Positions 2,208-27,646 of a stretch of DNA of 64,000 nt are shown here, in pieces. Under the pieces are notes generated by a model. That model made no database searches and had not been told where the DNA came from. It saw nothing but the letters and a program-made list of their open reading frames with translations. Every line of letters begins with the position of its first letter. Within the stretch, counting starts at the first letter, position 1. A program made the translations under genes and the position numbers. The DNA comes from Burkholderiaceae bacterium (lineage in GTDB: Bacteria > Pseudomonadota > Gammaproteobacteria > Burkholderiales > Burkholderiaceae_E), in contig JAMLIR010000008.1 in assembly GCA_023954045.1 (NCBI GenBank), forward strand, positions 1-64,000, given 5' to 3'.

Positions 2208-2259
2208 CGGTTCGCTCGGTCGGTTCGTCGCACGCGCGCCGCGCGGCTTGCAGCGTGCC

Positions 2260-3111: not shown

Positions 3112-3216
3112 CGGAGCGGTCCGGATTGGGAAGTGGGGAGGTGGCCGCGCGCGCCGCGCGCGGCAACGCCGGCGCGCGCGGGACGCGATCGAGTCTAGCA
3201 CGCGGCCTGACGCGAC

Positions 3217-3246
3217 TTGCGCCTCACCACGGTCGTGTCATATACT
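3217..3246 (+). promoter_or_regulatory. Sigma-70 promoter for the tRNA pair
   Basis: TTGCGC (3217-3222), an 18-base spacer and TATACT (3241-3246), followed by a G/C-rich discriminator as is common at stable RNA promoters. The predicted start lies a few bases before tRNA-Ala at 3261. Confidence 0.6.
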
Positions 3247-3260
3247 CGCTGGCTCTTCGG

Positions 3261-3336
<76 letters not shown>

Positions 3337-3373
3337 CGTAGAACAGAAGAACAACGAACCGCAGCAACGACGA

Positions 3374-3449
3374 GTCCCGTTCGTCTAGAGGCCTAGGACA
3401 CGACCCTTTCACGGTTGTAACAGGGGTTCGAATCCCCTACGGGACGCCA
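3374..3449 (+). tRNA. tRNA-Glu (anticodon TTC)
   Basis: A 76-nt cloverleaf with acceptor GTCCCGT pairing with ACGGGAC, anticodon loop CTTTCAC (TTC) and T-arm GGGGTTCGAATCCCC. The encoded CCA ends at 3449. A P4-type integrase gene starts 173 bases downstream, so the 3' end of this tRNA is the likely integration target of the neighbouring element. Confidence 0.97.
3434..3449 (+). other. Candidate attL at the tRNA-Glu 3' end
   Basis: The tRNA 3' end CCCCTACGGGACGCCA reappears, with one base missing, as CCCTACGGACGCCA at 14782-14795. P4-type integrases normally recombine at tRNA 3' ends. The match is imperfect, so this is a candidate only. Confidence 0.4.
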
Positions 3450-3493
3450 GGTATCCATCCGGCAAGGCCCGGGAAGCACCGGCACGAAGACAT

Positions 3494-3519
3494 AAAGCCC
3501 TGAAAAATCAGGGCTTTTT
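3494..3519 (+). terminator. Rho-independent terminator of the tRNA transcript
   Basis: A perfect 10-bp stem, AAAGCCCTGA (3494-3503) with TCAGGGCTTT (3508-3517) around an AAAA loop, runs into a T-rich tail. It lies 45 bases after tRNA-Glu and also insulates the integrase gene. Confidence 0.9.
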
Positions 3520-3576
3520 CGTTTTCTGGCGTCCGGAGTCGTCCATTGGCAGCCGGCGCAAGTGGGGGTACATTCC

Positions 3577-3622
3577 GGGGGAACGCAGCACGGTTCCCCC
3601 TTGAATCGAGGCCTGTTCCCCC
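3577..3622. promoter_or_regulatory. Three GGGGGAAC boxes overlapping the integrase start
   Basis: GGGGGAAC occurs at 3577-3584, and its complement GTTCCCCC at 3593-3600 and 3615-3622. The first two form an inverted repeat and the third abuts the integrase ATG, so there is no room for a normal ribosome-binding site. The same box recurs at the other end of the element (14700-14707). They could be integrase arm sites, AlpA operators or both. Confidence 0.5.
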
Positions 3623-4858
3623 ATGTTGACCGACCCGAAGTGCAGGAACGCGAAGTGCCCGGCGGGCACGACCCGCGTGCGCCTGGCCGATGCCGAAGGC
3701 CTGTATCTCGAAGTCTCGCCGCTGTCGAAACGCTGGTTCTGGAAGTACCGCTTCCAAGGCAAGGAGAAGCGCCTGGCGCTCGGCATCTACCCGGCGGTCG
3801 GGCTCGCGGCGGCGCGTGCGGCTCGCGACGATGCTCGCAACACCCTGAAGGCCGGCACCGATCCCGTCGCCGCCAAGCAGCAGCGCCAGCGCCTGGCGCG
3901 CGAGCAGGCGGACAACACTTTCGTGGCCGTCGCGCGTCGCTGGTACGCGCACTGGAGCCCTGCGCAGAGCGCCCGGCACGCCGAGTACGTCCGGCGCCGG
4001 CTCGAAGCCGACGTCTACCCGGAGATCGGCGATCGGCCGATCGGGGAGATCACCGCGCGCGAGCTGGTCGCGCTGGCCGAGAAGATCCAGGAGCGCGAGG
4101 CGCTCGAGCTGGCACGGCGCTCGCTGCAGTACGCGGGGCAGGTGTTCCGGTGGGCCGTGGCGCGCGACCTGGTCGATCGGAACCCGGCTGCCGACGTGAA
4201 GCCGCGCGACGTGCTCAAGCCGCGCGAGAAGCGCAACTATGCCCGGCTGCCGATCAAGGACGTTCCCGAGTTGCTGCGCAAGATCGAGGCCTACCAGGGC
4301 GCCTACACGCGCCTGGCGATGAAGCTCATGGCGCTGACCTTCGTGCGTACCGGCGAGCTGATCGGGGCGCATTGGGACGAGTTCGAGAACCTCGACGGCG
4401 ACGCTGCGCTGTGGCGGATCCCGGCGGCGCGCATGAAGATGAAGACCGAGCACCTGGTCCCGCTGTCGCAGCAGGCCGTCGACGTGCTCCACAGCCTGTA
4501 CGAGATCCGCGGCCGCTCGGGCCTGTTGTTCGTCGGCGAGCGCAACCACGAAAAGCCGATGTCGAACAACACGATCCTGAAGGCGCTGGAGCGCATGGGC
4601 TTCAAGGGCCGGATGACCGGGCACGGCTTTCGTGGGGTCGCGTCGACCGAGCTGCACGAGATGGGTTTTCCGCACGAGTGGATCGAGCTGCAGCTGGCCC
4701 ACCAGGAGCGCGACCAGGTCGCCGCCGCGTACAACTACGCGAGCTACCTGCAGCAGCGCCGGAAGATGATGCAGGCGTGGGCGGATCGGCTCGACGCGCT
4801 GCGCCAGGGCACTGAGCGCGCGGGCAACGTCGTTCCGATGAAGGCGGCGCGGTCGTGA
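3623..4858 (+). CDS. P4-type tyrosine integrase
   Basis: A 411-residue site-specific recombinase expected to insert and excise the element. The N-terminus (LTD..CRNAK..., LYLEV, WKYRFQGKEKRLALGIYP) is the DUF4102 arm-binding domain. A core-binding domain follows (about 95-190), then the catalytic domain with Arg in VRTGELIG (about 241), HGFR (about 333-336), LAHQE (about 359) and a Tyr in AAYNYASY (about 370). Length is usual for the P4 family. It lies next to tRNA-Glu, reads into the element and overlaps the next gene (GTGA). The start is fixed by the family pattern, although the bases before it are GTTCCCCC rather than a ribosome site. Confidence 0.93.
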   Translation: MLTDPKCRNAKCPAGTTRVRLADAEGLYLEVSPLSKRWFWKYRFQGKEKRLALGIYPAVGLAAARAARDDARNTLKAGTDPVAAKQQRQRLAREQADNTFVAVARRWYAHWSPAQSARHAEYVRRRLEADVYPEIGDRPIGEITARELVALAEKIQEREALELARRSLQYAGQVFRWAVARDLVDRNPAADVKPRDVLKPREKRNYARLPIKDVPELLRKIEAYQGAYTRLAMKLMALTFVRTGELIGAHWDEFENLDGDAALWRIPAARMKMKTEHLVPLSQQAVDVLHSLYEIRGRSGLLFVGERNHEKPMSNNTILKALERMGFKGRMTGHGFRGVASTELHEMGFPHEWIELQLAHQERDQVAAAYNYASYLQQRRKMMQAWADRLDALRQGTERAGNVVPMKAARS

Positions 4859-5298
4859 GCACGCCGAAGCCGGGCGGCAAGGCGATCAGGATCGAGCCGG
4901 CGGCACGCGACTGGCGCGGGCTGTTCATCACCGTCCGCTACCCCGATCGGCCCGACGATCCACCGATGGAGCGATTCGCCGTGTTCGCGCTCGACCTGCC
5001 GCGCGGGCGCGTGGTCTGGATCGAGGGCTCCTACGCGGACCCCTACGGCTGGCCGTCGCCGTCGTCACACGAGGTGCATCGGCTTCGCGAGGTTGCGCCG
5101 CTGCGCACGGCCGGGCCGGCGTTCGAGGGCGCGTGCACGTCGGCCGACTGGACCGCTGTGATCGAACCGTATCGGCGCGGGCTGCGCGAGGACTTCGACC
5201 GGGCGCTGGCTTGGTTCGAGGGCTACCTGCGCGAGCAGGGGCGCACTTGGGATGAGGAGCGCGAGCAGGTTCGGCGTTCGTTCGAGGAAGAACAGTGA
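4855..5298 (+). CDS. Hypothetical protein
   Basis: A 147-residue soluble protein I do not recognise. It starts at a GTG whose GTGA overlaps the integrase stop, and its own stop overlaps the next ATG (TGATG), so three genes appear translationally coupled. A strand-rich N-terminal half (LFITVRYPD, FAVFALDLPRGRVVWIEG) is followed by an acidic, probably helical C-terminus (DRALAWFEGYLREQGRTWDEEREQVRRSFEEE). No signal peptide or membrane segment is visible. Confidence 0.65.
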   Translation: MSTPKPGGKAIRIEPAARDWRGLFITVRYPDRPDDPPMERFAVFALDLPRGRVVWIEGSYADPYGWPSPSSHEVHRLREVAPLRTAGPAFEGACTSADWTAVIEPYRRGLREDFDRALAWFEGYLREQGRTWDEEREQVRRSFEEEQ

Positions 5299-5945
5299 TG
5301 GCTGGCCGCAAGCGCGCGACGGCACCTGCGTTCCCGGACCGCGTTCCGCCCGCGCTGCAGGCGCGACTGCGCGTGATCGCGGAGGGGTTCGCCGCGACTG
5401 CGGGACTTGCATCGCCGAAGGCCTCCGATCGGTGGACGGACGCGAAGGCGATTCAGAAGAAGGCTGCCGATTTGACCAAGCTGGTGCGGGCTTGGCACAA
5501 GGAGTTCTCCGGCCTGGCGATCGACGCAGGCGCTCGCGAGGGTGCCGAGCGCGACCTGGCCGACCTGGGACTCGACGCCGGCGAGGTCGCGCTTGCCCGC
5601 GCGGGCTTCGATCCTCACGCGCTGCAGTTCGTGCTGCTCGGACTGCAGGCTCACCTGCGCGCCGTCCAATTGCGGCATCCGAAAGGCCCGGATGAGCTTT
5701 GGCGTGCACGACTTCTGGTCAAGATCGCCGCCGAGGAGTTCCGCAAGGCGAAGCTGCCGGTGAAACGCGTCGAACGCAAAAGCCCCAAACCGAACCTATT
5801 CGCCGAGACGTGCACGACGATGTTCGCGATTTCCGGGGTCGCTGGTCGCAAGGGGCAGACGCCCGACCCTGTCGACCTGATCCGTGAACTGAAGGAAGGG
5901 CGCAGAAAGCGTCCGCCGCGCCGGAAGAAGCCCGAGCCCGATTGA
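5298..5945 (+). CDS. Hypothetical basic protein
   Basis: A 215-residue protein of unknown function. The first ATG overlaps the upstream stop; a GTG one codon earlier is less likely. It is Ala/Lys/Arg-rich and probably mostly helical, with a strongly basic end (GRRKRPPRRKKPEPD) that could bind nucleic acid. It closes the integrase-proximal transcript; the next gene, the AlpA-like regulator, starts 115 bases on, behind inverted repeats. Confidence 0.65.
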   Translation: MAGRKRATAPAFPDRVPPALQARLRVIAEGFAATAGLASPKASDRWTDAKAIQKKAADLTKLVRAWHKEFSGLAIDAGAREGAERDLADLGLDAGEVALARAGFDPHALQFVLLGLQAHLRAVQLRHPKGPDELWRARLLVKIAAEEFRKAKLPVKRVERKSPKPNLFAETCTTMFAISGVAGRKGQTPDPVDLIRELKEGRRKRPPRRKKPEPD

Positions 5946-5954
5946 TCGCCGCGC

Positions 5955-5997
5955 GCCGGGGGAGACCGGCTGAAAACTGCGGTAGAGATCCCCCGGC
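5955..5997. promoter_or_regulatory. Inverted repeat upstream of the alpA-like gene
   Basis: A perfect 9-bp inverted repeat: GCCGGGGGA (5955-5963) and TCCCCCGGC (5989-5997). It shares the GGGGGA core with the boxes in front of the integrase, so the same protein may bind both. Confidence 0.4.
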
Positions 5998-6021
5998 CTT
6001 CCGCAGCCCGGCCTACTTAGC

Positions 6022-6048
6022 ATCGGTCCCGTTCAACTCGGAACCGAT
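6022..6048. promoter_or_regulatory. Second inverted repeat immediately upstream of the alpA-like gene
   Basis: ATCGGTCCC (6022-6030) pairs at 8 of 9 positions with GGAACCGAT (6040-6048). It ends 12 bases before the ATG of the regulator, the place expected for an autoregulatory operator. Confidence 0.35.
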
Positions 6049-6060
6049 GGGGGTAGCCGG

Positions 6061-6270
6061 ATGAAAGCCACAGTCAATCAGTCGAGCGCGCCCGAGCGCC
6101 TGCTGCGCATTCGTGAGGTCGTCGATCGCACGGGCCGGTCGCGGTCGATGGTCTACGACGACGTCAAGGCGGGGCGTTTCCCGGCGCCGATTCGGATCGG
6201 CCTGCGCGCGATCGCGTGGCGCCAGGGCGACATCGATCGCTGGATCGAGACGCGGCCGTCGGCGCGCTGA
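6061..6270 (+). CDS. AlpA-family transcriptional regulator
   Basis: A 69-residue MerR-like winged-helix protein. RLLRIREVVDRTGRSRSMVYDDVKAGRFPAP and the following IGLRAIAWRQGDIDRWIE match the compact AlpA/excisionase fold seen in P4, CP4-57 and PICIs. In those elements AlpA activates the integrase or primase/replication genes. Here it sits between the integrase block and the primase/helicase genes, behind two inverted repeats, so a switch role is likely. The exact operator is unknown. Confidence 0.85.
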   Translation: MKATVNQSSAPERLLRIREVVDRTGRSRSMVYDDVKAGRFPAPIRIGLRAIAWRQGDIDRWIETRPSAR

Positions 6271-6280
6271 GGCGGGCGCC

Positions 6281-6754
6281 GTGTCCGTCGAAGCCCTGGT
6301 CCCGCACCTGAAGCGCGTCCGGCGCGTGGGTCGCAATAGGTTGGTCGCGTGCTGCCCGGCGCACCCCGACCGCGGACCGAGCCTGTCGGTCGCCGAGGGC
6401 GACGACGGGCGAATCCTGATTCACTGCTTCGCCGGATGCGCGCCGCTTGCCGTACTCGAGGCCGTCGGGCTCGACTTCGCCGCTCTGTTCCCCGAGCGCG
6501 ATCCCGACGACGTCGGTCGGCGCGCCGGCTGGCGCTCGGCAGTAGCGCGCGACGCCCGCCAGCGCACCGAGGCGATTCCGCCGCGCACGGCGCTGATCGC
6601 GATCCACGCCGACGCGACCGAGGCTGCGGTGATCGTATCGGACGTCGCCGAGGGCAGGCGCACCGCCGAGTCGGCCCGCGCCGATCTCTGGACGCTGGCC
6701 GGGCGCATTGCGGCGGCGCTGTCGATGACGGAGGGGCGCCGTGGCCACGCCTGA
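6281..6754 (+). CDS. CHC2 zinc-finger primase-like protein
   Basis: A 157-residue protein starting at GTG, with GAGGCGGG before it. The N-terminal part has the bacterial-primase zinc finger: CCPAHPDRGPSLSV (Cys about 24-25) and IHCFAGC about 20 residues later. There is no TOPRIM or polymerase domain; the rest is Ala/Arg-rich and probably helical. It overlaps the helicase gene by 14 bases. It may be a loader or template-recognition half of a split primase-helicase, as the long primases of satellites fuse such domains. Alternatively it is a reduced regulator of replication. Confidence 0.75.
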   Translation: MSVEALVPHLKRVRRVGRNRLVACCPAHPDRGPSLSVAEGDDGRILIHCFAGCAPLAVLEAVGLDFAALFPERDPDDVGRRAGWRSAVARDARQRTEAIPPRTALIAIHADATEAAVIVSDVAEGRRTAESARADLWTLAGRIAAALSMTEGRRGHA

Positions 6755-7892
6755 TCGGGTCGCCGGTTCACGAGCGGCTGTCGACCGGCTCGTCCGAGAG
6801 CAGGGCGAGCAGGCGCCGCGGCTCCGCTTCGTCACCGTCGACGAGCTGCTGCGCCAACCACCGCAGATCTGGCGCGTGCTTCGCGTCATCCCTGGGCGCG
6901 GCCTGGTCGTGCTGTGGGGTGCGAGCGGCAGCGGGAAGACCTTCACCGTGCTCGACCTGGCCGGCGCAGTTGTGCGCGGTCTGCGGTGGGCTGGTCGTCG
7001 AACCCGGCGCGGCGTCGTCGCCTACATCGCGGCCGAAGGGCACCTGCGCGACCGGCTCGACGCCTATCTGCAGGACAACGATCTGCAGGCGTCCGATCTG
7101 AGCGGCCTGCGCGTGCTCGACTCGTCGGTCAACCTGCTCGACCCGACCGCCGACATCGACTCGCTGCTCGCGGGCCTGCGCGAGGTCGTCGCCGAGGCCG
7201 GACCGCTCGCGATCGTGGTCATCGACACCTTGAACCGGGTCATGCCTGGCGGCGACGGGAACTCGTCCGAGGACATGGGCGCGGTGATCGCCGCCGCAAA
7301 GCTGATCGAGCGCGAGTTCGACTGCGTAGTGCTGTTCGTCCACCACAGCGGCAAGGATGAGGCGAAGGGCAGCCGCGGGCACTCGTCTCTGAAAGGCGCG
7401 ACCGACGCCGAGATCAGCGTCAAGCGCGACGGCGACGTCCGCACCGTGACCGCCGAGAAGGTGCGCGATGGCGTCGACGGCGAAGTGCTGATGACGTTCC
7501 GGCTGCGCCCGGTCGACCTGGGGCCGATGTCGGACGCCGACCCCGAGGCGGAACCGGACGAGCGCAGGACGTCGTGCGTGGTCGAGCTGGTCGAGGCCGT
7601 CCAGACGCCCGGCACGGTGCGCCTGTCCGATGTCGAGGAAATCGCGCTGCAGGTGTTCAAGGACCTGTGCTCGAGCGCCGACGATCGGACCGAGGCGACT
7701 TCCCTGCATCCAGCGGGTCGTCCACGCGTGGCGCTCGACGACTGGCGCGAGCGGTTCCGCCAGAAGCGCGGCGTGGACAAGGCCGACGCGAAGGCGATGG
7801 ATGCCAGCCAGAAGGCGTTCCGGCGTGCGGTCGACAAGCTGATCCGGCTGCGCATCGTCGGCGTCCACGAACGGCGGGCCTGGCTGTGGTGA
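6741..7892 (+). CDS. RepA-like AAA/RecA-fold replication helicase
   Basis: A 383-residue ATPase of the AAA_25/RepA type. Walker A GASGSGKT lies at about 60-67, the Walker B strand VVIDTLN at about 158-164 and the HHSGKDEAKGSRGHSSLKG segment typical of this group at about 200-218. The C-terminal third is helical and may be a small HTH/oligomerisation region. RSF1010 RepA and related satellite proteins unwind DNA at an iteron origin, and an iteron-like array begins 10 bases after this gene stops. It starts at GTG inside the primase-like gene, indicating coupled translation. Confidence 0.85.
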   Translation: MATPDRVAGSRAAVDRLVREQGEQAPRLRFVTVDELLRQPPQIWRVLRVIPGRGLVVLWGASGSGKTFTVLDLAGAVVRGLRWAGRRTRRGVVAYIAAEGHLRDRLDAYLQDNDLQASDLSGLRVLDSSVNLLDPTADIDSLLAGLREVVAEAGPLAIVVIDTLNRVMPGGDGNSSEDMGAVIAAAKLIEREFDCVVLFVHHSGKDEAKGSRGHSSLKGATDAEISVKRDGDVRTVTAEKVRDGVDGEVLMTFRLRPVDLGPMSDADPEAEPDERRTSCVVELVEAVQTPGTVRLSDVEEIALQVFKDLCSSADDRTEATSLHPAGRPRVALDDWRERFRQKRGVDKADAKAMDASQKAFRRAVDKLIRLRIVGVHERRAWLW

Positions 7893-7902
7893 TCCGCCGG
7901 AC

Positions 7903-8019
7903 CGGACAGCCGGACAACGGACACCCCTATAGGGGTGTGTCCGTGTCCGTCCGGCTGCTGCACTCGGGCTCCGGTGCCGGACATGTCCGGCCCATGTCCG
8001 TGTCCTGTCCGTTTGTCCG
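7903..8019. repeat. Iteron-like array of ten TGTCCG hexamers (candidate replication origin)
   Basis: TGTCCG or its complement CGGACA occurs ten times in 117 bases, starting at 7903, 7911, 7918, 7938, 7944, 7978, 7984, 7995, 8006 and 8014. Three copies (7984, 7995, 8006) are exactly 11 bases apart, one helical turn. Two perfect palindromes are embedded: 18 bp at 7921-7938 centred on CTATAG, and 14 bp at 7977-7990 centred on CATG. The array directly follows the RepA-like helicase gene. Confidence 0.65.
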
Positions 8020-8039
8020 CCTGCTCGATGAGGTTCCCC

Positions 8040-8252
8040 ATGCCTGACGATCGTCGCGCCGTCCGGCGCACCTTCCGGGTCGGCCGCTTCACCTGCGAGC
8101 TGACCATTCCGGTCCTGGGCGCCGGCGGCATCGCGGCGGCGACCTGCGAATGGTCCCCGTCGGTGCCCGAGCGCCTGTCCGACGCCGAGCAGACGGTCTA
8201 CGCGACCGAGCTGCAGCGCGCGCTTGCCGAAGCGATGGAGGCCCGGTCATGA
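8040..8252 (+). CDS. Small hypothetical protein
   Basis: A 70-residue protein starting at the ATG just after the iteron-like array. The N-terminal half looks strand-rich (RTFRVGRFTCELTIPVLGAGGI) and the C-terminal half helical (RLSDAEQTVYATELQRALAEAMEA). It overlaps the next small ORF by ATGA. I do not recognise the family. Confidence 0.55.
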   Translation: MPDDRRAVRRTFRVGRFTCELTIPVLGAGGIAAATCEWSPSVPERLSDAEQTVYATELQRALAEAMEARS

Positions 8253-8410
8253 CCCCCTCGAATCGGGCAGGGGGAACGAACCGGGGGAATACGTCGGGCG
8301 CCGAACGGCGACATCGGCCACGGCCGCCGGTCTACGGCCGATATCCGGATACCTGTGTCCTTCCGGAAGGGCTGCACCCGATCAGGAAGCACCTGGAGGC
8401 CGAATCGTGA
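8249..8410 (+). CDS. Possible small ORF carrying the 81-bp repeat
   Basis: A 53-codon frame linked to both neighbours by ATGA/GTGA overlaps, which is why it is listed. Composition is Arg/Pro/Gly-rich, and half of it is the 81-bp repeat also found at 14700. The better amino-acid conservation between the two repeat copies is in a different frame, so this may be a spacer rather than a gene. Confidence 0.25.
   Translation: MTPSNRAGGTNRGNTSGAERRHRPRPPVYGRYPDTCVLPEGLHPIRKHLEAES
8270..8350. repeat. 81-bp imperfect direct repeat, copy 1
   Basis: Aligns without gaps to 14700-14780 (offset 6430). The first 21 bases are identical and contain GGGGGAAC followed by a related GGGGGAAT box. The middle has diverged. 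The last third is a hairpin, ATCGGCC...GGCCGAT, followed by a shared TCCGGAT. Confidence 0.7.
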
Positions 8411-8760
8411 AGCGTGAGCCCTGCACCGTCGCGTTCGAGGGCGCGGCGCTCCCGCCGGCGCTCCTCGAGCTGTTCGAGCACTGCGTGCGCCACGGCCTGT
8501 ACGACGGTGACGCCGACCGCGCGAGCCTGCTCGCGATGCACCGGCTCGATCCCGGCGCGACCTGCGACCTCGTGGGTGAAATGGCGGCGCGCGTCTTGCG
8601 CTGCCGGCGCTGCGCGCACTTCCGGCGGCCGGGCCTGGCCGATCAGGGCTACTGCGGCGAGCGCGCGGACCTGCCGATCGTCTACGGCCTGCTGCACGCG
8701 CTACCGCCGGACGGCGGCGCCTGGTGCCCGCTGTTCGCCAGCACGGAGGTGCGGCCGTGA
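8407..8760 (+). CDS. Cysteine-motif hypothetical protein (tandem paralogue A)
   Basis: A 117-residue protein starting at GTG. A helical N-terminus is followed by a likely metal-binding tail: CRRCAHFRRPG, then GYCGERADL, then GGAWCPLF. The next gene has the same tail with the same Cys spacing pattern (CxxC, FC/YC, GAWC), so the two look like a duplicated pair. Four cysteines suggest a zinc ribbon, possibly for DNA or protein binding. Function unknown. Confidence 0.6.
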   Translation: MKREPCTVAFEGAALPPALLELFEHCVRHGLYDGDADRASLLAMHRLDPGATCDLVGEMAARVLRCRRCAHFRRPGLADQGYCGERADLPIVYGLLHALPPDGGAWCPLFASTEVRP

Positions 8761-9098
8761 GCCCGGTCACCTTCGAGTTCCCCATCGACGAGCGCGGCGA
8801 GCCTCGCCCGGCGCTGGCCGAGCAGGTTGACCTGCTGCTCCGGCGCCTGGTCGTCTCTCAGGTGATCACCGGCGGCAAGGCCGACGACCTGCGGTTGCAG
8901 TTCGCAGAGTCGCCGCGCGGGACCGCGGGCCGGATCATCGACCTGGTCGAGCGCGTCGACCGCTGCGATCGCTGCGCATTCCTGCGGCGCCCGGCTTCCG
9001 GTCGCTCGTTTTGCGCCGGGCGCGGCTCGGCCTTCGAGCTTCCGGCCGACCGCGGCGCCTGGTGCGCGGGCTTTCGTCCGCGTGGAGACCGGCCGTGA
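8757..9098 (+). CDS. Cysteine-motif hypothetical protein (tandem paralogue B)
   Basis: A 113-residue protein beginning at a GTG that overlaps the previous stop. Its C-terminal tail CDRCAFLRRPASGRSFCAGRG...DRGAWCAGF parallels that of the gene before it, while the N-terminal half (FEFPIDERGEPRPALAEQVDLLLRRLV) differs. Probably a zinc-binding accessory protein of the element; no function can be assigned. Confidence 0.6.
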   Translation: MSPVTFEFPIDERGEPRPALAEQVDLLLRRLVVSQVITGGKADDLRLQFAESPRGTAGRIIDLVERVDRCDRCAFLRRPASGRSFCAGRGSAFELPADRGAWCAGFRPRGDRP

Positions 9099-9262
9099 TT
9101 CGGGCCGATGCCGCACGGACGCCTGAATCGGGCGACACGGCGCGTTTTCAGGGCGCGGGGCTATCGACCCCTTACCCGCTCGCCGACAGGCGCACACGCG
9201 TCGATCTGGCGCGTCGCGCGGCGGGCTCCCCTTTCCCTGACCACCGGAGGTTCCCGAAATGA
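9095..9262 (+). CDS. Possible small ORF linking two genes
   Basis: A 55-codon frame that starts GTGA at the previous stop and ends ATGA at the next start. The coupling is the only support; composition (Arg, Ala, Pro) is not distinctive and no motif is visible. Confidence 0.25.
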   Translation: MIRADAARTPESGDTARFQGAGLSTPYPLADRRTRVDLARRAAGSPFPDHRRFPK

Positions 9263-9483
9263 TCACCGTCGAAGACCGCGAGCGCCGCGCCGGCCAGAAA
9301 GCCGCGCTCGAAGTCATCGCCAGCTTCAATGCCTTCCAGGCGAAACCCGACGCCGTGCAGGCCGCGCTGATGGCGCTGCTCGAGGACGCGGGCCTGAAGC
9401 CCGTTCCGCCCGAGATCGCGAACCGGATCGAAGGCTTCGCAATCGCGCTCCATCGCGAGTTGGCGATGAAGGCTGCGCGCTGA
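9259..9483 (+). CDS. Small hypothetical protein
   Basis: A 74-residue, probably all-helical protein (AGQKAALEVIASFNAFQAK..., VQAALMALLEDAGLKPVPPEIANRIEGFAIALHREL). The upstream GGAGG gives a good ribosome site for the ATG. Unrecognised; it belongs to the run of small genes downstream of the replication module. Confidence 0.55.
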   Translation: MITVEDRERRAGQKAALEVIASFNAFQAKPDAVQAALMALLEDAGLKPVPPEIANRIEGFAIALHRELAMKAAR

Positions 9484-9496
9484 TCGCTTCCCCACC

Positions 9497-10189
9497 ATGA
9501 CGAGGTTCACCATGACCGCTGCTACCGTTTCTGCCCCCTCCGAGTCGCCCGAGCTGGCCGCGCTGCGCGCCGCGAAGGCACGCTTCGACGCCGCCCAGGC
9601 CGAGGTCGATCGCGTGCTCGCCGCCAAGCCCACACCGCCGGACCTGTCCGCCGTGCTGGTGGCGCTCGCAGACGCCCAGCGCGACTTCGAGGACGCGTCC
9701 GCCGCGCGCGTCCTGGGCACCGCCACCGACGACGAAGTGCGCCAGGCCGCCGAGGTGCTGGCGAAGGCGCGCAAGGCGCACGAGGCCGCCGCCGTGAAGG
9801 CCGAGCAATTCGCGATGCTCGAGGCCGGCTTCACGCGTGCACTCGCGCAAGTCCAGGCCGAGGTCGACGCCGCCGCCGAGGCCAGGCGCGAGGCCGAGAA
9901 CGCGTGGCTGCGCGCCGAGTTGGTCGACGCCGACGAGCGGTACTGCCGCGCTGCCGAGACAATGTTCGCGCAATGGCGCCGCGCGAAGTCGCTCCATCGC
10001 GCGCTCATGACGCGCGGCGGGCGCTCGACCAACTATCTCGACATCGCGCCACCGCCGACGGCCCCTGCACTCGCTGTCTGGCGCAGCAAGAAGGACCACG
10101 ATGACACGCTCTTCCGCGCTCAGTTCGTCGACCTGCACGCTGCCGAGCTCGCCCTGCAGGCCGCGTCGATCTCGGCGGGCGAGGGCTGA
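9497..10189 (+). CDS. Coiled-coil hypothetical protein
   Basis: A 230-residue protein dominated by long Ala/Glu/Arg-rich helices (about 15-160) with heptad-like spacing, then a shorter tail. A second Met at 9512 (MTAATVS) has an equally plausible ribosome site. Such coiled-coil proteins in phages and satellites can be scaffolds or SMC-like accessory factors, but nothing specific identifies this one. Confidence 0.6.
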   Translation: MTRFTMTAATVSAPSESPELAALRAAKARFDAAQAEVDRVLAAKPTPPDLSAVLVALADAQRDFEDASAARVLGTATDDEVRQAAEVLAKARKAHEAAAVKAEQFAMLEAGFTRALAQVQAEVDAAAEARREAENAWLRAELVDADERYCRAAETMFAQWRRAKSLHRALMTRGGRSTNYLDIAPPPTAPALAVWRSKKDHDDTLFRAQFVDLHAAELALQAASISAGEG

Positions 10190-10316
10190 TTCGGCGGCGC
10201 CGATGCTACTTACGGTTGCGCGCTGCTACTGATGGCGTACTACCGAAAATTGTGTTGCGAGCCGGGCGCACCAGAGGGAACGTACCCGGACCGCAACGCA
10301 CGTCACGGAGCCTCGC

Positions 10317-10505
10317 ATGAAAACGATCGTGGTCACCTTCACCGACTCGCTATCTGGCCGGGTCGTCTACACGGTGGGCGTCGAATCCGTCGCGCACGAC
10401 GAGGCGGCGCGGTGCGCTGCCCTGTCGGCCGCCTACGAAGCGGCGCGGACCAGTGGGGTGACGGTCAACGACCCGCACCTTCGCCATTCGTTCGCTTGCC
10501 TGTAG
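10317..10505 (+). CDS. Small hypothetical protein
   Basis: A 62-residue protein with an N-terminal strand pair (TIVVTFTDSLSGRVVYTVGVESV) and a helix (HDEAARCAALSAAYEAARTSG). CGGAGCC precedes the ATG. Unrecognised. The 127 bases before it contain no other convincing gene. Confidence 0.5.
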   Translation: MKTIVVTFTDSLSGRVVYTVGVESVAHDEAARCAALSAAYEAARTSGVTVNDPHLRHSFACL

Positions 10506-10531
10506 CCGACGCCCGCGTCACGGAGACCGCA

Positions 10532-10750
10532 ATGAGCCCAAGCACCTACCCGCCGCCGTCGCGCGACTGGCTGATCCGGCTGCACGAGTTCGTCTGGAAT
10601 TGGCTGCGCGCCGTCGAGCCGAGCACCACCGACCTGCGCTTCATCGATGGCGAGTTGTTCGTGCGTGACTTCGGCGGCTGGTCGTCGCTCGGCGGCTTCG
10701 CCGGCTGGTTGCGCCTGGCCCGCGCGCTCGGCGCGCTGCGTTCGGAGTGA
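10532..10750 (+). CDS. Small Trp-rich hypothetical protein
   Basis: A 72-residue protein with five Trp residues (DWLIRLHEFVWNWLRAVEP, GGWSSLGGFAGWLRLARAL), possibly amphipathic and membrane-associated. CGGAGA precedes the ATG, and the stop overlaps the next GTG start. Function unknown. Confidence 0.5.
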   Translation: MSPSTYPPPSRDWLIRLHEFVWNWLRAVEPSTTDLRFIDGELFVRDFGGWSSLGGFAGWLRLARALGALRSE

Positions 10751-11100
10751 TCACCATGAAGACCCGGAGGAACCCGCACGCCGGCACCGACGTTCAGTCG
10801 ATCACGCTCCACGCGGACGGCTACGCCTGGGAGGCGCTCGTTCGCGTCGCCGGCGTCGCCTACGCCGCCAGCTACATCGGCGCGCGCCTGCAGGTCCGGC
10901 TCGCCGCGACCGAGCGCCCGAGCCGGCGCCGCGCCTGGCACGTGGAGGCCGTGCGCGTCTGGGCGTTGTCGAAGATCCTTGCCCTGCCGCCTGCCTGGCA
11001 CGCGCGCCACGAGGCCCTGCACGGCGTGCGCGAGCAGCGCGAGGCGGTGCGCCGGGCTGCGCTCGATCGCCTGGTCGCGCTCGAAGGGCAGGCCGCCTGA
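10747..11100 (+). CDS. Hypothetical protein
   Basis: A 117-residue protein starting at GTG (10747, overlapping the previous stop) or at ATG 10756. The N-terminal half is strand-rich (SITLHADGYAWEALVRVAGVAYAASYIGARLQVRL), followed by helices rich in Arg, His and Ala. Its stop overlaps the next ATG (TGATG). Unrecognised. Confidence 0.5.
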   Translation: MITMKTRRNPHAGTDVQSITLHADGYAWEALVRVAGVAYAASYIGARLQVRLAATERPSRRRAWHVEAVRVWALSKILALPPAWHARHEALHGVREQREAVRRAALDRLVALEGQAA

Positions 11101-11339
11101 TGGACCCGGTGGCCGCGCGCGCGGCGCTCGCCGACGAGCTGGAGCGCTTCCTCGCGTACTGCTCGGAGAACCCCGACGACCGGGCAGCGCAACGTCAAGG
11201 CCGAAGCTGGACCTTCGGCGCGTGCCGGGCCGCGGTCGCGGTCGGGCTGATGACAGAAGCCGAGGCCGAGGCTTGGGTCCAGCGGGCTTGGCTCGTTGCC
11301 GGGCGGAGCGGGCGCCCGGCGCAGGGCGCTGCCCGATGA
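11100..11339 (+). CDS. Small hypothetical protein upstream of the TerS-like gene
   Basis: A 79-residue, probably all-helical protein (MDPVAARAALADELERFLAYCSENPDDRA..., LMTEAEAEAWVQRAWLVAGR). It overlaps both neighbours (TGATG and ATGA), so it is likely translated together with the TerS-like protein. No family recognised. Confidence 0.5.
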   Translation: MDPVAARAALADELERFLAYCSENPDDRAAQRQGRSWTFGACRAAVAVGLMTEAEAEAWVQRAWLVAGRSGRPAQGAAR

Positions 11340-11836
11340 CCGCGAAGAACGCCACGTCGCCGCGCTCGCTGGTCTCGCTGCAGCGCCAGCAGCAGGCGGT
11401 CGAGTTGCGCCGGTCGGGTCGTTCGTACCGCGAGATCGCACACGCGATCGGGGTCGGCGTGACGACCGCACACCGGCTGATCTCGGGCGCGATGGCGGAG
11501 GCACGCTCGGCCGTGGCCGAGGACGTCGTCGAGCTTCGCGCGCTCGAGCTGTCGCGCCTGGACGGGCTGATGGTCGCGCTGTGGCCGAAGGCGCGGCGCG
11601 GTGAGCTGTCGGCTGTCGATCGCGTTCTGAAGATCATGGAGAGGCGTGCCAAGCTGCTCGGCCTGGACGCGCCGGCGAAGGTCGCCCGGACGAACGCGGC
11701 CGGCGACGAGGATGAGGGCGACGGCACGCGCTACATCGTGCCGGTGCCGGCGCAGATGTCGCTCGACGAGTGGGTCCGCCGGTTCGCGCCGGTGGGCTCG
11801 GCGCCGGGCGTCGAGGGATCTCGCGCGTCGGCCTGA
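11336..11836 (+). CDS. Terminase-small-subunit-like HTH protein
   Basis: A 166-residue protein with a homeodomain-like helix-turn-helix near the start (QQQAVELRRSGRSYREIAHAIG, then VTTAHRLISGAM). A helical segment ends VDRVLKIMERRAKLLGLDAP, a signature often seen in phage TerS-like proteins. TerS selects DNA for packaging together with TerL. No TerL is present here, so the protein could redirect a helper phage terminase, as TerS of PICIs does. It could equally be a plain regulator. It ends the forward small-gene run. Confidence 0.6.
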   Translation: MTAKNATSPRSLVSLQRQQQAVELRRSGRSYREIAHAIGVGVTTAHRLISGAMAEARSAVAEDVVELRALELSRLDGLMVALWPKARRGELSAVDRVLKIMERRAKLLGLDAPAKVARTNAAGDEDEGDGTRYIVPVPAQMSLDEWVRRFAPVGSAPGVEGSRASA

Positions 11837-12139
11837 CGCGCGGGGTGAGGGCCGGCCGATTCTGTTCGCGGCCGGGCGGGTATCAGTCGGCGAGTCGCCC
11901 GCGTCAGAAAGCAACCCCGACAGCCCGCGGCGGCCGCTCCGTGAACGGCCGCGCGGCGGGCAACCCTTTACAGCAGGCGGCGGGTCGTATAGGGCGCGGC
12001 CGTTCCGCTGCTATGCGTTCCGCGAGCGGCCGGTTGCGGTGGCCGGTCCGAATCGTTCTGTGACCCGCCCCGGGTCTTCGCGGGCCAATGTAAAGTGTCG
12101 GCTGATCCCGACAACTTTGCGACCCCACGACGGATTTTC
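11837..12139. other. Gap before the restriction-modification genes
   Basis: About 300 bases with no convincing gene. The first two thirds are G+C-rich, with the complementary arms CGGCCG repeated several times. Base composition turns more A+T-rich towards the restriction gene, and an inverted repeat lies at 12096-12113. Confidence 0.5.
12096..12113. promoter_or_regulatory. Inverted repeat upstream of the restriction gene
   Basis: TGTCGG and CCGACA flank the spacer CTGATC, 27 bases before the ATG at 12140. Such symmetric sites in front of restriction genes often bind a controller or the methyltransferase itself. The spacer contains GATC, which may matter if the partner methylase acts on a GATC-containing site. 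Confidence 0.35.
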
Positions 12140-12997
12140 ATGGTAAAGAAGGCGGCGACTCCCGAGCCTGATCCTGAGAACGGAGATGGCGAAACCGACG
12201 ATGGTGAAGATCAGGAGAACGGCGCACTTGATGACGTCGCGCTGCATCCGGGGCCAAACGCGGACTCGGCAGTCGATATCGAGCGGTACATCACTGCTGA
12301 CGTGCGGGCGCTCTACGACGTATTCAGCTACAGGCACGCGGCTGCGATCCTCGCGAATGAATTCCCGGCAGAGCTGAAGGAGATCGAAGGCGCTCTTCTG
12401 GCCTTTCGAATTACGACGAAGGACATCGGCGCGCCAGGGGGAAACGAGTCGATTGTGCCGAAGAAGTATTCAAGCATGTTGCGGCCCTTGAAATGGTACG
12501 AAGCGAGAATTCAGGGCGACCTGATCGTTCGGCAGACGCTTCACGCGCGGAGCCTAAGGGCAGGTGGTAAGTCGAAGAAGTCCGAGGTTGCAGGCGCCGA
12601 CCAGCGGATGATCGAGAACTTCATCGACGGCCACAAGATTGATTACGTGAAGGGGCGCGTCGCGTTCGACTTGGAATGGAACTCGAAAGATCAGACGTTC
12701 GACCGCGATCTGTACGCGTTTCGAACTTTTCACGAATGCGGTCTGATCAGTGCTGGGGTGATGGTCACGCGTAGCGCGAGCTTGAATCCCGTATTCGATC
12801 AGGTTCCGCTCCTCAATAAGAATGGCGAGCCAGTCCTGGATGAGTCGGGCGCGGTTACGCCGGCGAAACGAAAGTACGGCGCGAGCACAACCTGGATGGG
12901 TAAGCTTTTGTATCGGCTGAATGCAGGAAGGCACGGGGGATGTCCGGTGCTAGTCTTTGGGATCACGCCGCGACTGATTGAAGATTGGAACCCATAG
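12140..12997 (+). CDS. BglII/BstYI-like type II restriction endonuclease
   Basis: A 285-residue protein. After a charged acidic linker (about 1-50), the rest resembles the BglII/BstYI family: YDVFSYRHAAAIL near the start, KIDYVKGRVAFDLEWNSKD (about 166-184), FDRDLYAFRTFHECGLISAGVMVTRS, YGASTTWMGKLLYRL and GGCPVLVFGIT. The catalytic segment would be the Asp of KIDY plus DLEW, where family members usually have a Glu and Gln/Glu pair. BglII and BstYI cut A/RGATCT/Y, but specificity cannot be read here. GTG 12095 is an alternative start. A 2-base gap to the methyltransferase indicates one transcript, and base use is more A+T-rich than its neighbours. Confidence 0.8.
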   Translation: MVKKAATPEPDPENGDGETDDGEDQENGALDDVALHPGPNADSAVDIERYITADVRALYDVFSYRHAAAILANEFPAELKEIEGALLAFRITTKDIGAPGGNESIVPKKYSSMLRPLKWYEARIQGDLIVRQTLHARSLRAGGKSKKSEVAGADQRMIENFIDGHKIDYVKGRVAFDLEWNSKDQTFDRDLYAFRTFHECGLISAGVMVTRSASLNPVFDQVPLLNKNGEPVLDESGAVTPAKRKYGASTTWMGKLLYRLNAGRHGGCPVLVFGITPRLIEDWNP

Positions 12998-12999
12998 CC

Positions 13000-13689
13000 A
13001 TGTCGAAACATCGTGTAGGCGAACCGAACCTCGCCGCCGTCGATCTACTAGCACAGCAGGGCGGCCGGAAGTTTCGAACGATCCTCGCCGATCCGCCGTG
13101 GCAGTTCCAGAACCGAACCGGCAAGATGGCGCCGGAGCACAAGCGGCTCTCCCGGTACGGAACCATGAAGCTCGAACAGATCGTGGCGCTACCGATTTCG
13201 CAGCTCGCCGATGACACGGCCCACCTGTACCTGTGGGTCCCGAACGCGCTTTTGCCTGACGGACTTCGGGTCATGGAGGCGTGGGGCTTCCAATACAAGA
13301 GCAATCTTGTCTGGCACAAGGTTCGTAAAGACGGTGGGTCGGACGGCCGTGGTGTCGGCTTCTACTTCCGCAATGTCACGGAGCTTGTTCTGTTCGGTGT
13401 CCGCGGCAAGAACGCGAGGACGCTGGCTCCTGGTCGCCGCCAGGTCAATCTCTTGGCGAGCATGAAGCGCGAGCATTCTCGCAAGCCTGACGAGCTCTAT
13501 GAGGTGGTCGAGTCATGTAGCCCTGGCCCGTACCTCGAGCTGTTCGCGCGCGGGCCGCGGAAGGGCTGGTCCGTATGGGGGAATCAGTCGGACGACTACT
13601 ATCCGACTTGGCCGACCTACGCCAATCACTCCCAAGCCGAACGTATTCAGGACGTGGTCGTCGAGATGGCTGCAGGCTCTGGGGAGTGA
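13000..13689 (+). CDS. MT-A70-family adenine-specific DNA methyltransferase
   Basis: A 229-residue Rossmann-type N6-adenine methyltransferase. Motif IV is DPPW (about residues 30-33, ILADPPWQF). LYLWVPNALLPDGLRVMEAWGF and LVWHKVRKDG follow, and the AdoMet-side motif is near the end (PYLELFARGPRKGWSVWGNQ). It is co-directional with and two bases after the BglII-like gene, so it most likely protects the host DNA from that enzyme. MT-A70 enzymes in phages can also act alone. The start is ATG 13000; an in-frame TTG at 12985 would overlap the endonuclease. Confidence 0.88.
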   Translation: MSKHRVGEPNLAAVDLLAQQGGRKFRTILADPPWQFQNRTGKMAPEHKRLSRYGTMKLEQIVALPISQLADDTAHLYLWVPNALLPDGLRVMEAWGFQYKSNLVWHKVRKDGGSDGRGVGFYFRNVTELVLFGVRGKNARTLAPGRRQVNLLASMKREHSRKPDELYEVVESCSPGPYLELFARGPRKGWSVWGNQSDDYYPTWPTYANHSQAERIQDVVVEMAAGSGE

Positions 13690-13873
13690 CGTCTGGTCGT
13701 AAGCCGTAAGCCCGCGATTCTGGTCGTCCAGCCCCGATGCGGCAGACACTCCAAGTAGCCTGAGTAGCACCAGCGCCGCCCCTTGTTGATCTCCTCGTGG
13801 CTCATGCGCGCGTCGTGTGCCGACAGCTCGCTGCCGTCTACTCGGCTGCCGGTCTAGGCCAATAGGCTGATCT

Positions 13874-14419
13874 CTATTCGATTGAGAGCGGCTTGTCCAC
13901 GAAGCCGCAATAGCTCAGATATCGCACCATCGCGTCCCGCGTTGCGGCGGCATACCAGAGCGACAAGCCTTCATCTTCTTGATTGCTGACGGCAAGCCAG
14001 GCTGATCGTCCGTCCATGGCTCGCAACTCGGCAATCCAGAATTCCATGCCCATCCCCTCATCGAGACATGCGTTAGCCCATCGCCTTACGAGCAGAAGCT
14101 TTTCGTCGCTCTCCAACCTCCGCGTGGCGCGAATCTCATCGGCGCGCTCGGATCCAAACAGCTCATCAAGGTCCTGAAGAAACTCGTCGAGCAACGGGTA
14201 CGGTGCCTCCACGCGGTCGACGTAGTGGCCGGTTGGTAGGCGTCCGCGAACCACCGCAGCCGGAAGCGCCGGGTCATGCAACCGATCCACGACCTCCGGT
14301 GCGATACGTGTGAGTTCGTCCGTGAGCCTGTCAATCGACACCGAGTCGCCGCCATTCTTTTCAGCCACGCTATGCAGGGCCTCGACGATTGCGTCGATGG
14401 TTGCTTGTTCGAGGTTCAT
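13874..14419 (-). CDS. Hypothetical protein
   Basis: A 181-residue soluble acidic protein of unknown function, reading against all other element genes. It is helical at the start (NLEQATIDAIVEALHSVAEK), with DELFGSERADEIRATRRL in the middle and a Trp-containing C-terminal part (MEFWIAELRAMDGRSAWLAVSNQEDEGLSLWYAAATRDA). No motif identifies it. Reverse-strand genes at an island end are often cargo such as defence or immunity functions, but this is only position-based. Confidence 0.6.
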   Translation of the reverse strand: MNLEQATIDAIVEALHSVAEKNGGDSVSIDRLTDELTRIAPEVVDRLHDPALPAAVVRGRLPTGHYVDRVEAPYPLLDEFLQDLDELFGSERADEIRATRRLESDEKLLLVRRWANACLDEGMGMEFWIAELRAMDGRSAWLAVSNQEDEGLSLWYAAATRDAMVRYLSYCGFVDKPLSIE

Positions 14420-14576
14420 CTATCGATCCTAACGTCGACTGCTGATCTTGCTGGCCGCGCCTAGTCGACTCAGAAATTGGGCCTCTAGCCGGACTCACAC
14501 GCTCCGATCTCATTTGATCCTGGACCCACCCTAGCAGCTCGCCAGCGAGGCGTTCGCTGATTTCGTCGTGGTTCAT
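14370..14576 (-). CDS. Possible small ORF upstream of the reverse-strand gene
   Basis: A 68-codon frame beginning MNHDEISERLAGELLGWVQDQM, a plausible amphipathic helix, followed by a low-complexity basic tail. It overlaps the start of the 181-residue gene by 50 bases and lacks a clear ribosome site. It may be just leader sequence. Confidence 0.3.
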   Translation of the reverse strand: MNHDEISERLAGELLGWVQDQMRSERVSPARGPISESTRRGQQDQQSTLGSIDEPRTSNHRRNRRGPA

Positions 14577-14699
14577 GCCCGCGGGCTGCCCGATCCGGGG
14601 CTTCGGCGGTATCGGCGCAACGGTTTAGGCTGACGGTAGTGGTCACGAAGCGACAGCGCCCGCGGTCGGCGCCGTTGTCCGGTAGCGTCCGACTGAAAC

Positions 14700-14780
14700 G
14701 GGGGAACGAACCGGGGGAATCGGCCTGTTCTAAATCTCTGAGATCGGCCACGGGCGCGCCTTTCCGGCCGATTTCCGGAT
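14700..14780. repeat. 81-bp imperfect direct repeat, copy 2
   Basis: Ungapped match to 8270-8350: the first 21 bases are identical (boxes GGGGGAAC at 14700 and GGGGGAAT at 14713). The hairpin ATCGGCC...GGCCGAT and the TCCGGAT end are also shared. It ends two bases before the candidate attR. Confidence 0.7.
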
Positions 14781-14781
14781 G

Positions 14782-14795
14782 CCCTACGGACGCCA
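14782..14795 (+). other. Candidate attR (tRNA-Glu 3'-end remnant)
   Basis: CCCTACGGACGCCA matches the tRNA-Glu 3' end except for one missing G; the flanking T-arm bases match partially. If right, the element spans about 11.36 kb. Confidence 0.4.
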
Positions 14796-15016
14796 AGCGC
14801 CAAGGTCACGGCGGCGTTTGGCCACAAACCAGCGATCCGGTCTGTCGGCCGCCTGCGCCGACCGCGCAGTCGGTGGGGCGTTGCGATCCGCATGCACCGA
14901 AGCGACATTCGTCGCGTCGGATCGTCGACGATCACCATCGGCGGTTGACGGACGTCAACGCACGGTCGCGGTTCGGGCGTAGCGTGACCGGGATCCGTTC
15001 GGCTCGAGTTCCACCG

Positions 15017-15820
15017 ATGTCCCGTTTGTTGCGTCATCTGCGTGCCCACCTCGTCGCCGCCCTGATGGGCGTCGGCCTGGTCGCTCCGGCGCACGCGGTC
15101 CTCGAGTTCGAGCCCGGGACGTGCTTCTGGAGCACGCTTCGTTACCCGGACCACCTGTACCTGGATTACGCCGGCGGGCCGAGCATGCCGCGGCGCGCCG
15201 CGGATCTCGTCCAGTGGGCCGAACTGCTCGACACGGACCTGCTGGCGGGCGACGACCCGCAAGGTCCGACATTGAACTCGGGCGTCTCCCACTGCGTCCT
15301 GCCGTTCCGCACCTACGGTGCGCTGATCACCCATGAGTTCTCGGCGGCCGGACGCATCTTCGCGGCGTTCGTCGACGAGCCGGGGGCGTACCTGTCGATG
15401 TTCCTCGACCTCTCGTCACGGATCCTCGACAGCGCGGGCAACGTCCTCAGCAGCTTCGAGCAGCGCTACGACATCCAGCCTGGCCCCGGTGACGCCGGGG
15501 TGGTCGACCTCGACGTCGACTATTCGCCGGCAGGCAGGCTGCTTTATCCGCACGCCGTCCCGCCCCCGAAACCCGAAGACTATCCCTTCGGCCCGCGCTT
15601 CTTCCTCGACTCGACGATCGCTTGGGGATACGTCTATTCGTCGGGCTATCTGTTCTTCGACTTCGCCGGCGCGTTTCGAGGAGAAACCGGCGACGGACTG
15701 GTGCGGGCGTCGATCAGTGAGTTTCCGTACTACGTTCCCGAGCCGGGTGTGATCGGCCTGCTCGCGGCGGGTGCAGCGGTTCTGCTGATGGCCGGAGCGC
15801 GCGCCCGCGCGGGACGTTAA
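15017..15820 (+). CDS. PEP-CTERM sorting-domain protein
   Basis: A 267-residue exported protein. Residues 1-27 (MSRLLRHLRAHLVAALMGVG then LVAPAHA) form a signal peptide, which fixes the start at 15017 although the frame is open upstream. The C-terminus has VPEPG (about 240), a hydrophobic stretch (VIGLLAAGAAVLLMAG) and a basic end, the tripartite PEP-CTERM signal processed by exosortase in exopolysaccharide-producing bacteria. The middle is a strand-rich region of unknown function. No exosortase gene is in the window. It is the first host-like gene after the element. Confidence 0.8.
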   Translation: MSRLLRHLRAHLVAALMGVGLVAPAHAVLEFEPGTCFWSTLRYPDHLYLDYAGGPSMPRRAADLVQWAELLDTDLLAGDDPQGPTLNSGVSHCVLPFRTYGALITHEFSAAGRIFAAFVDEPGAYLSMFLDLSSRILDSAGNVLSSFEQRYDIQPGPGDAGVVDLDVDYSPAGRLLYPHAVPPPKPEDYPFGPRFFLDSTIAWGYVYSSGYLFFDFAGAFRGETGDGLVRASISEFPYYVPEPGVIGLLAAGAAVLLMAGARARAGR

Positions 15821-15857
15821 TCTTCGTTTCAGCCTCCGCCCGCGATACTCCGTCCGA

Positions 15858-15885
15858 CCCTCTCGTTCGGGCGCGAACGGGAGGG
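15858..15885. other. Hairpin between the PEP-CTERM gene and the efflux operon
   Basis: CCCTCTCGTTCG (15858-15869) pairs at 11 of 12 positions with CGAACGGGAGGG (15874-15885) around a 4-base loop. There is no T-run, so it could be a weak terminator or an mRNA-leader structure of the efflux operon. Confidence 0.4.
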
Positions 15886-15911
15886 AGACGAAATCCCGGA
15901 CGAGGATCCAC

Positions 15912-17033: not shown

Positions 17034-17049
17034 CGGAGCACCTGCCGCG

Positions 17050-20138
<3,089 letters not shown>

Positions 20139-27455: not shown

Positions 27456-27507
27456 GTGCGGCGGCGCATTGTTCGATGCGCGAATCCTAGCGGGATTCTT
27501 CGGCCGA

Positions 27508-27533
27508 TGCAGTGCAAACGCTTGTGCACTGCA
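27508..27533. promoter_or_regulatory. LacI-type operator O2, near the regulator gene
   Basis: Perfect 9-bp arms TGCAGTGCA and TGCACTGCA flank AACGCTTG. The inner core TGCAAACGCTTG (27513-27524) is identical to the core of the second operator at 27591. The site lies about 53 bases before the repressor start, fitting autoregulation. Confidence 0.65.
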
Positions 27534-27559
27534 GAAGATGGAAACGAAACTATGGTGGG

Positions 27560-27588: not shown

Positions 27589-27590
27589 GG

Positions 27591-27604: not shown

Positions 27605-27646
27605 TAACTCGCAGGCCTCGATCGAGAACGAACCGGAACGAGGACA

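Follow-up and report, generated by a model that had tools for sequence, protein, structure and literature searches.

Borders and gene content of the tRNA-Glu island

We analyzed a 64,000-nucleotide stretch of DNA from a Burkholderiaceae bacterium (contig JAMLIR010000008.1, positions 1–64,000; hereafter the window), carried by one of the 50 contigs of its assembly (C49), and characterized an island inserted at the 3′ end of a tRNA-Glu gene that probably represents a phage satellite resembling the phage-inducible chromosomal islands (PICIs). Using the right flank as a query against 60 relatives, we retrieved a near-identical locus in only one of them, the same-genus genome G015. This locus (L016) matched window positions 1929–3449 with 99.87% identity over 1521 bp and positions 14776–18700 with 98.0% identity, with an overlap of 21 bp between the matches. 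In G015, the overlap is the end of the tRNA-Glu gene, followed immediately by the right flank of the window. As the left and right matches meet at the tRNA-Glu end, G015 carries the empty site, and the island corresponds to positions 3450–14795 (11,346 bp). A preliminary description of this DNA, made from the letters alone, had proposed a PICI-like satellite at this gene and suggested looking for an empty tRNA-Glu site in related genomes; its end point, 14795, coincides exactly with the right junction. The features of the locus are the following.

3261–3336: tRNA-Ala gene, preceding the element
3374–3449, plus strand: tRNA-Glu (UUC) gene, integration target (ARAGORN; G015 empty site)
3429–3449: left attachment (att) core, the tRNA-Glu 3′ end (G015 empty site)
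3564–3622: putative arm-type or operator repeats just upstream of int, GGGGGTAC and GGGGGAAC 13 bp apart plus two inverted GGGGGAAC copies
3623–4858, plus strand: tyrosine integrase with an arm DNA-binding domain (Pfam PF13356/PF22022/PF00589)
4855–5298, plus strand: open reading frame (ORF) of 147 aa (best matches E 0.19 and 0.23; none in PADLOC)
5295–5945, plus strand: ORF of 216 aa (best match E 0.033 in PHROGs; none in Pfam or PADLOC)
6061–6270, plus strand: AlpA-family regulator, by family match (PF05930, 8.7e-16)
6281–6754, plus strand: CHC2 zinc-finger primase-like ORF, start uncertain (PHROG DNA primase, 2.7e-10)
6741–7892, plus strand: AAA_25 (RepA-like) helicase (PF13481, 4.5e-35; PHROG primase/helicase families)
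7903–8019: candidate iteron array directly after the helicase, ten CGGACA in both orientations
8270–8353: internal copy of the right arm, non-coding, between the helicase and the zinc-type ORF
8407–8760, plus strand: cysteine-containing (zinc-type) ORF of 117 aa, in part 52–53% identical to ORFs of the viral loci L153 and L154
9497–10189, plus strand: ORF of 230 aa (the tRNA-Leu island L119 encodes a homologue, 35% over 138 aa)
10747–11100, plus strand: ORF of 117 aa (phrog_28174, function not known)
11336–11836, plus strand: terminase small subunit (TerS), putative by homology and context (phrog_645, 1.9e-28)
11876–11965, plus strand: non-coding block of ~90 bp, common to L119 (12998–13090) and L045 (2352–2444) at a similar distance after terS
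12140–12997 (ORF from 12095), plus strand: BglII/BstYI-family type II restriction endonuclease (PF09195, 1.9e-46)
12985–13689, plus strand: MT-A70 family DNA methyltransferase with DPPW motif (PF05063, 1.3e-29; PADLOC MTase_II, 2.2e-89)
13874–14419, minus strand: ORF of 181 aa between the restriction–modification (R-M) pair and attR (no significant family match in Pfam, PHROGs, NCBIfam or PADLOC)
14700–14719, plus strand: right arm repeats, GGGGGAAC-GAACC-GGGGGAA
14776–14795, plus strand: attR, matching the tRNA-Glu 3′ end imperfectly (junction with the G015 empty site)

All 18 presumed genes of the island were scanned against PHROGs and ten each against Pfam, NCBIfam and PADLOC, together with two profiles for the terminase large subunit (TerL). 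Significant Pfam matches were obtained for the integrase, AlpA, the AAA_25 helicase, BglII and MT-A70, and the CHC2 ORF and TerS were recognized via PHROGs; the integrase scored 1.5e-22 for Pfam Phage_integrase and 8.3e-64 for the PHROG integrase. NCBIfam gave no above-cutoff name for the ten proteins tried, and the methyltransferase was the sole PADLOC match. Eleven of the 18 genes have no assigned function, and only one of these (10747–11100) has a strong PHROG match. The parts claimed in the preliminary description, from the integrase beside tRNA-Glu to the R-M pair, were thus all recovered in the claimed order by Pfam, PHROGs and ARAGORN. Its attachment site and gene list needed correcting: the right att copy is imperfect, and the 181-aa minus-strand ORF has to be added before attR. 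In agreement with its other claims, these scans revealed no virion or lysis genes, and no relaxase or transfer family among the genes covered by Pfam and NCBIfam, the genes outside those two scans being at most 124 aa long.

Compared over 21 positions with the tRNA end CGAATCCCCTACGGGACGCCA, the right att copy CGGATGCCCTACGGACGCCA shows two substitutions and one deletion. This mismatch may reflect either decay or sequence brought in by the attP of the element, with a crossover near the last bases.

A second tRNA-Ala/tRNA-Glu locus, with flanks 88–90% identical, lies on contig C11 of the same assembly (G000:C11 56235–70703; L009 2236–16704). It holds a different island of ~14.4 kb, encoding another integrase, an exonuclease-BRCT protein, a resolvase and an OLD-like nuclease, and terminating in an exact 20-bp copy of the tRNA end; no structural family was found among the ten ORFs scanned, nine of them inside that island. 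This locus may be a duplication or may stem from a contaminating related strain.

The putative terminase small subunit and related islands

The product of 11336–11836 is supported as a putative TerS by its homologues and their gene context. The family that it matches is labelled 'Rnase E' in PHROGs. As a query, the protein matched 470 of 50,697 phage records, every one below 60% identity; the 30 records listed name it terminase small subunit (10), helix-turn-helix (HTH) protein (9), 'Rnase E' (7) or hypothetical (4). Elsewhere in our searches, the family appeared mostly in actinophage records. Arthrobacter phage Bolt007 encodes TerL and then the portal directly after the TerS homologue, and TerL is gene 7 of Microbacterium phage Blett, ~1 kb beyond its TerS homologue. 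We assembled 58 TerS loci (42 from IMG/VR, many of them near-duplicates, 14 genome contigs and two phage records) and detected TerL in 43 with either of the two purpose-built profiles, some of the 43 being profile seeds. Where the first profile finds it, TerL lies within ~1.1 kb downstream of terS, and PHROGs separately calls TerL in L046, L047 and L049. TerL was missing by these profiles in 15 of the 58, including L045, L126, L127 and L128; L048, L082 and L138 end just past terS. Likewise, the island yielded no TerL with the two profiles and hence appears to carry terS without terL, an arrangement common in PICIs. The AlphaFold model of TerS comprises an HTH and further helices with a low-confidence tail (mean pLDDT 74.9); Pfam finds only a weak HTH, and the structure matches are largely HTH regulators. 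Among 399 genomes drawn from the order of the host, TerS occurs in two, one being the host genome, and the AAA_25 helicase in 28.

Three other betaproteobacterial islands share the order integrase, AlpA, helicase and TerS, each at a tRNA gene.

L119/L126 (one contig; metagenome-assembled genome titled Betaproteobacteria bacterium, from the order of the host): tRNA-Leu; integrase 32%, AlpA, TerS 61%
L127 (Piscinibacter defluvii): tRNA-Ser; integrase 64%, AlpA (short match), DnaB, TerS 56%
L128/L148 (Rubrivivax albus): tRNA-Ser; integrase 58%, AlpA (short match), AAA_25 helicase, TerS 50%

Both named species belong to the Burkholderiales. L119/L126 additionally encodes a replication-initiation-like protein, a DnaB helicase and the homologue of the 230-aa ORF (35%), and a 14-base att repeat at 14787–14800 delimits an island of ~9.8 kb. 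L127 has a 14-base att repeat at 15810–15823, and no convincing att repeat was found in L148. The 147-aa and 216-aa ORFs have no counterpart in L119, L127, L148, L153 or L154. A second Piscinibacter island (L149; integrase 61%) showed no TerS, AlpA or helicase match up to the contig end, and viral-contig scans yielded no relatives of either the helicase or the 230-aa ORF.

As separate observations, a same-genus genome (G007:C10, L122) carries a tRNA-Ser island with an integrase of 35% and an AAA_25 helicase of 36% identity, in which TerS of the present class was not found in the stretch examined. In L127, in which no TerL was found, an odd cargo gene for a 941-aa tail tape-measure homologue (10514–13339) lies right after terS.

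A scan of IMG/VR with the integrase returned 57 loci, two of which, L153 and L154, share further genes of the front half in the same order (integrase 58–60%, CHC2 ~33%, zinc-type ORF 52–53%). AlpA (49%) is likewise present in L154, where the helicase gives a weak match. In both loci there are genes for a major head protein and a portal as well as an HNH gene; L153 further encodes a head protease and a TerS unlike that of the island (phrog_5601). They are compact, with an unusual gene order that in L153 runs head protein, protease, portal, HNH and TerS.

These relatives raise the possibility, which we advance only tentatively and regard as somewhat doubtful, that one front module (integrase, AlpA, CHC2, helicase and zinc-type ORF) has been joined either to a capsid module of its own, as in L153 and L154, or to a terS-only module with a variable cargo slot, as in the window, L119, L127 and L148. 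Packaging functions would then be swapped in the manner of cargo, and 8270–8353 would be a joining scar. Within that internal arm copy, 8270–8289 equals 14700–14719 (20/20 bases) and 8310–8353 is 80% identical to 14740–14783 (75% for the whole, by BLAST). The stretch containing it is absent from L153 and L154, in which the helicase and the zinc-type ORF abut.

The restriction–modification pair and non-coding repeats

The endonuclease and methyltransferase ORFs are open, adjacent and overlapping, consistent with a type II R-M pair. With a GC content of 0.572 and 0.611, as compared with 0.708 for 3623–11836, the pair is of foreign composition. The endonuclease matched nine of 200 genomes, the host genome included, and the methylase stands beside it in six of the eight others (G146, G127, G046, G110, G118 and G138; loci of 1.8–3.6 kb), the remaining two (G199 and G164) having endonuclease fragments only. 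Several of the genome matches are weak or interrupted, with internal stops in G127 and two frames in G146. Among plasmids, 13 records match the endonuclease, the best being Comamonas resistens pZM22-2 (73.9% identity). In the two plasmid records inspected for gene context, pZM22-2 and one from Roseomonas, a BglII/BstYI endonuclease is followed by an MT-A70 methyltransferase, and a Mesorhizobium phage carries BglII adjoining an adenine methyltransferase. The pair on pZM22-2 resembles that of the island in order and adjacency, with an endonuclease 74% identical, and differs in its plasmid setting beside a recombinase and an abortive-infection gene. Given its occurrence on plasmids, a phage and other genomes, the pair is, judging from these homologues, a travelling cassette, sited here after terS. 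The novelty that the preliminary description had cautiously attached to this cargo is weakened accordingly, all the more as the accessible part of PMC9122126 already describes type II R-M systems (EcoO109I) on P4-like satellites.

Several non-coding features accompany the genes. The ten CGGACA copies, which the preliminary description had noticed as an iteron-like array, fall in a 141-bp stretch, compared with a mean of 0.11 and a maximum of 3 in 10,000 single-base shuffles of that stretch, and all other 130-bp stretches of the window contain at most two; an iteron replication origin is plausible here. The motif GGGGGWAC occurs six times in the window, always inside the island (four before int, one at 8270 and one at 14700), as compared with a mean of 1.87 in shuffles, of which 1 in 100 reached six. 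As G-rich repeats occupy the same position ahead of int in L127, L148, L149 and L154, they probably serve as arm sites for the integrase close to the int promoter. The ~90-bp block after terS, for which L149 gave a further weak match (E 0.003), is a possible packaging or termination signal; RNA folding 3′ of terS stayed within the ordinary range (z −1.14). Finally, a candidate pac site within terS (64 bp, 11612–11675, ~80–88% identical across several distant terS genes) was dropped, because synonymous identity there (95/196, 0.48) against that elsewhere (108/253, 0.43) indicates that protein constraint explains the conservation.

Outside the island, the window shows a lowered GC content at 26000–35000 (0.59–0.68, compared with 0.705 for the window).

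Interpretation and comparison with known satellites

Taken together, we interpret the 11,346-bp island at the tRNA-Glu 3′ end as a PICI-like phage satellite carrying a type II R-M pair, with a probability of roughly three in four (0.76). This interpretation draws on the empty site, the integrase/AlpA/replication module, a TerS without TerL, the lack of any structural gene in the scans and the three like-ordered islands. No capsid, portal or TerL gene was detected on the element, and its genes lie together at a site that is empty in a relative; capsid genes, or genes scattered without an empty site, were what the preliminary description had named as telling against its proposal.

The accessible part of PMC6092414 recognizes PICIs by an integrase, replication module and regulator in conserved order, by the absence of structural or lytic genes, by a typical size of ~12–15 kb and by an attachment site never occupied by prophages. 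The order int-alpA-CHC2-AAA_25 corresponds to the first of these, and the family match to AlpA (PF05930, 8.7e-16) points to the Gram-negative branch. At 11.35 kb, the island is just under the typical size, and the one other occupant seen at a tRNA-Glu attachment site is the C11 island. Two points weigh against the interpretation: the AlpA of L127 and of L128/L148 is weakly supported by short matches, and terS is not among the criteria given in the part of PMC6092414 available. For these reasons, we lowered our estimate from 0.78.

Starting from the site, borders, gene order, TerS family and R-M pair, which are seen in the sequence itself, a life cycle can be envisaged. By analogy with E. coli PICIs (PMC6092414, accessible part), a helper phage would switch on AlpA, and the integrase would release the island as a circle by recombining the tRNA end with attR. 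The CHC2 protein and the AAA_25 helicase could then replicate the island from the CGGACA iterons, and the TerS would mark island DNA and bind the TerL of the helper, allowing entry into helper capsids. The BglII-like nuclease and MT-A70 methylase would lead to cleavage of unmodified DNA, probably that of competing phages, and may help to retain the island in the host lineage.

Alternatively, the island could be a stranded descendant of such a satellite, integrated once by its integrase, now immobile and retained through host protection or addiction by the R-M pair. The three changes in 21 positions of attR, next to a right flank otherwise 98% identical to G015, would fit this account, as would the fact that no helper came to light in the genome. 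A search of the host genome with phrog_2 found TerL on C43, a 3.9-kb contig that begins 141 bp ahead of it, and a second, weak match inside a 1884-codon frame on C34; neither shows a resident helper, though C43 could belong to one, and the C43 TerL falls in the broad TerL profile whose last rounds took C43 in. However, the backbone ORFs are open, the arm repeats and iterons are present, and the att difference could have come in with attP instead of arising by decay, so that we consider stranding unlikely, if a serious contender.

Considerably less probable is a genomic or defence island of a general type that travels by conjugation or natural uptake and whose 'TerS' is just an HTH regulator. 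The weak HTH found by Pfam, the structure matches and the 16 of 30 listed phage records with 'Rnase E' or HTH protein as the name are in line with such a view. Against it, TerL is present in 43 of 58 loci and lies within ~1.1 kb downstream where the first profile finds it, and Pfam and NCBIfam detected no relaxase or transfer family in the genes that they covered. Descent by deletion from a full prophage, to which the phage homologues of integrase and TerS might point, is the least probable origin given the exact att-bounded ends, the AlpA and CHC2/AAA_25 module and the similar reduced order in independent islands.

Understood as a PICI-like satellite, the island is a betaproteobacterial addition to this group whose empty site is exactly defined. 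It links satellites to a TerS family that we saw mainly in actinophage records, and it points to a position behind terS where variable genes are acquired; here that position is taken by an R-M pair which plasmids carry as well. Its relatives form a testable set for the exchange of packaging modules between satellites, and phages with a phrog_38-type TerL beside this TerS class (L046, L047 and L049) suggest themselves as helper candidates. What makes the island interesting is its TerS class, together with the recurrence of betaproteobacterial relatives and a possible exchange of packaging modules, rather than the R-M cargo itself. In the literature searched, with few subscription papers within reach, we found in print neither PICI-like satellites of betaproteobacteria, Burkholderia or Burkholderiales nor the combination of BglII with MT-A70.

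P4 has its own gene set. P4-like satellites, too, can carry a type II R-M system as cargo, and the accessible part of PMC9122126 notes that such anti-phage cargo can benefit the helper. These satellites carry psu, sid and related capsid-size genes (PMC4936722, accessible part), whereas the 18 island genes showed no PHROG head-and-packaging family other than TerS, P4 genes not having been searched by name.

The Gram-negative PICIs of the EcCICFT073 type (PMC6092414, accessible part) share with the island the integrase, AlpA, a primase/replication module and compact size, together with the absence of structural and lysis genes, none of which was found here. In contrast, the island, known from sequence alone, has separate primase-like and helicase ORFs, and it encodes its own TerS whereas EcCICFT073 required a phage-encoded terS. 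L153 and L154, which have a front module related to that of the island, resemble the capsid-forming PICIs, a family named in the accessible part of PMC11389934; they bring their own capsid genes, whereas PHROGs found no head family among the 18 island genes.

Finally, phiAH14b of Pseudomonas ANT_H14 resembles the island in its integrase (44% over 409 aa), in an AlpA of 26% identity at the same place and in its separate primase and helicase genes. It differs in its size of 16.8 kb and in having no R-M pair annotated in its record. According to the accessible part of PMC4936722, its authors found no terminase gene, and phiAH14b DNA was present in tail-less capsids whose identified proteins all belonged to the prophage AH14a.

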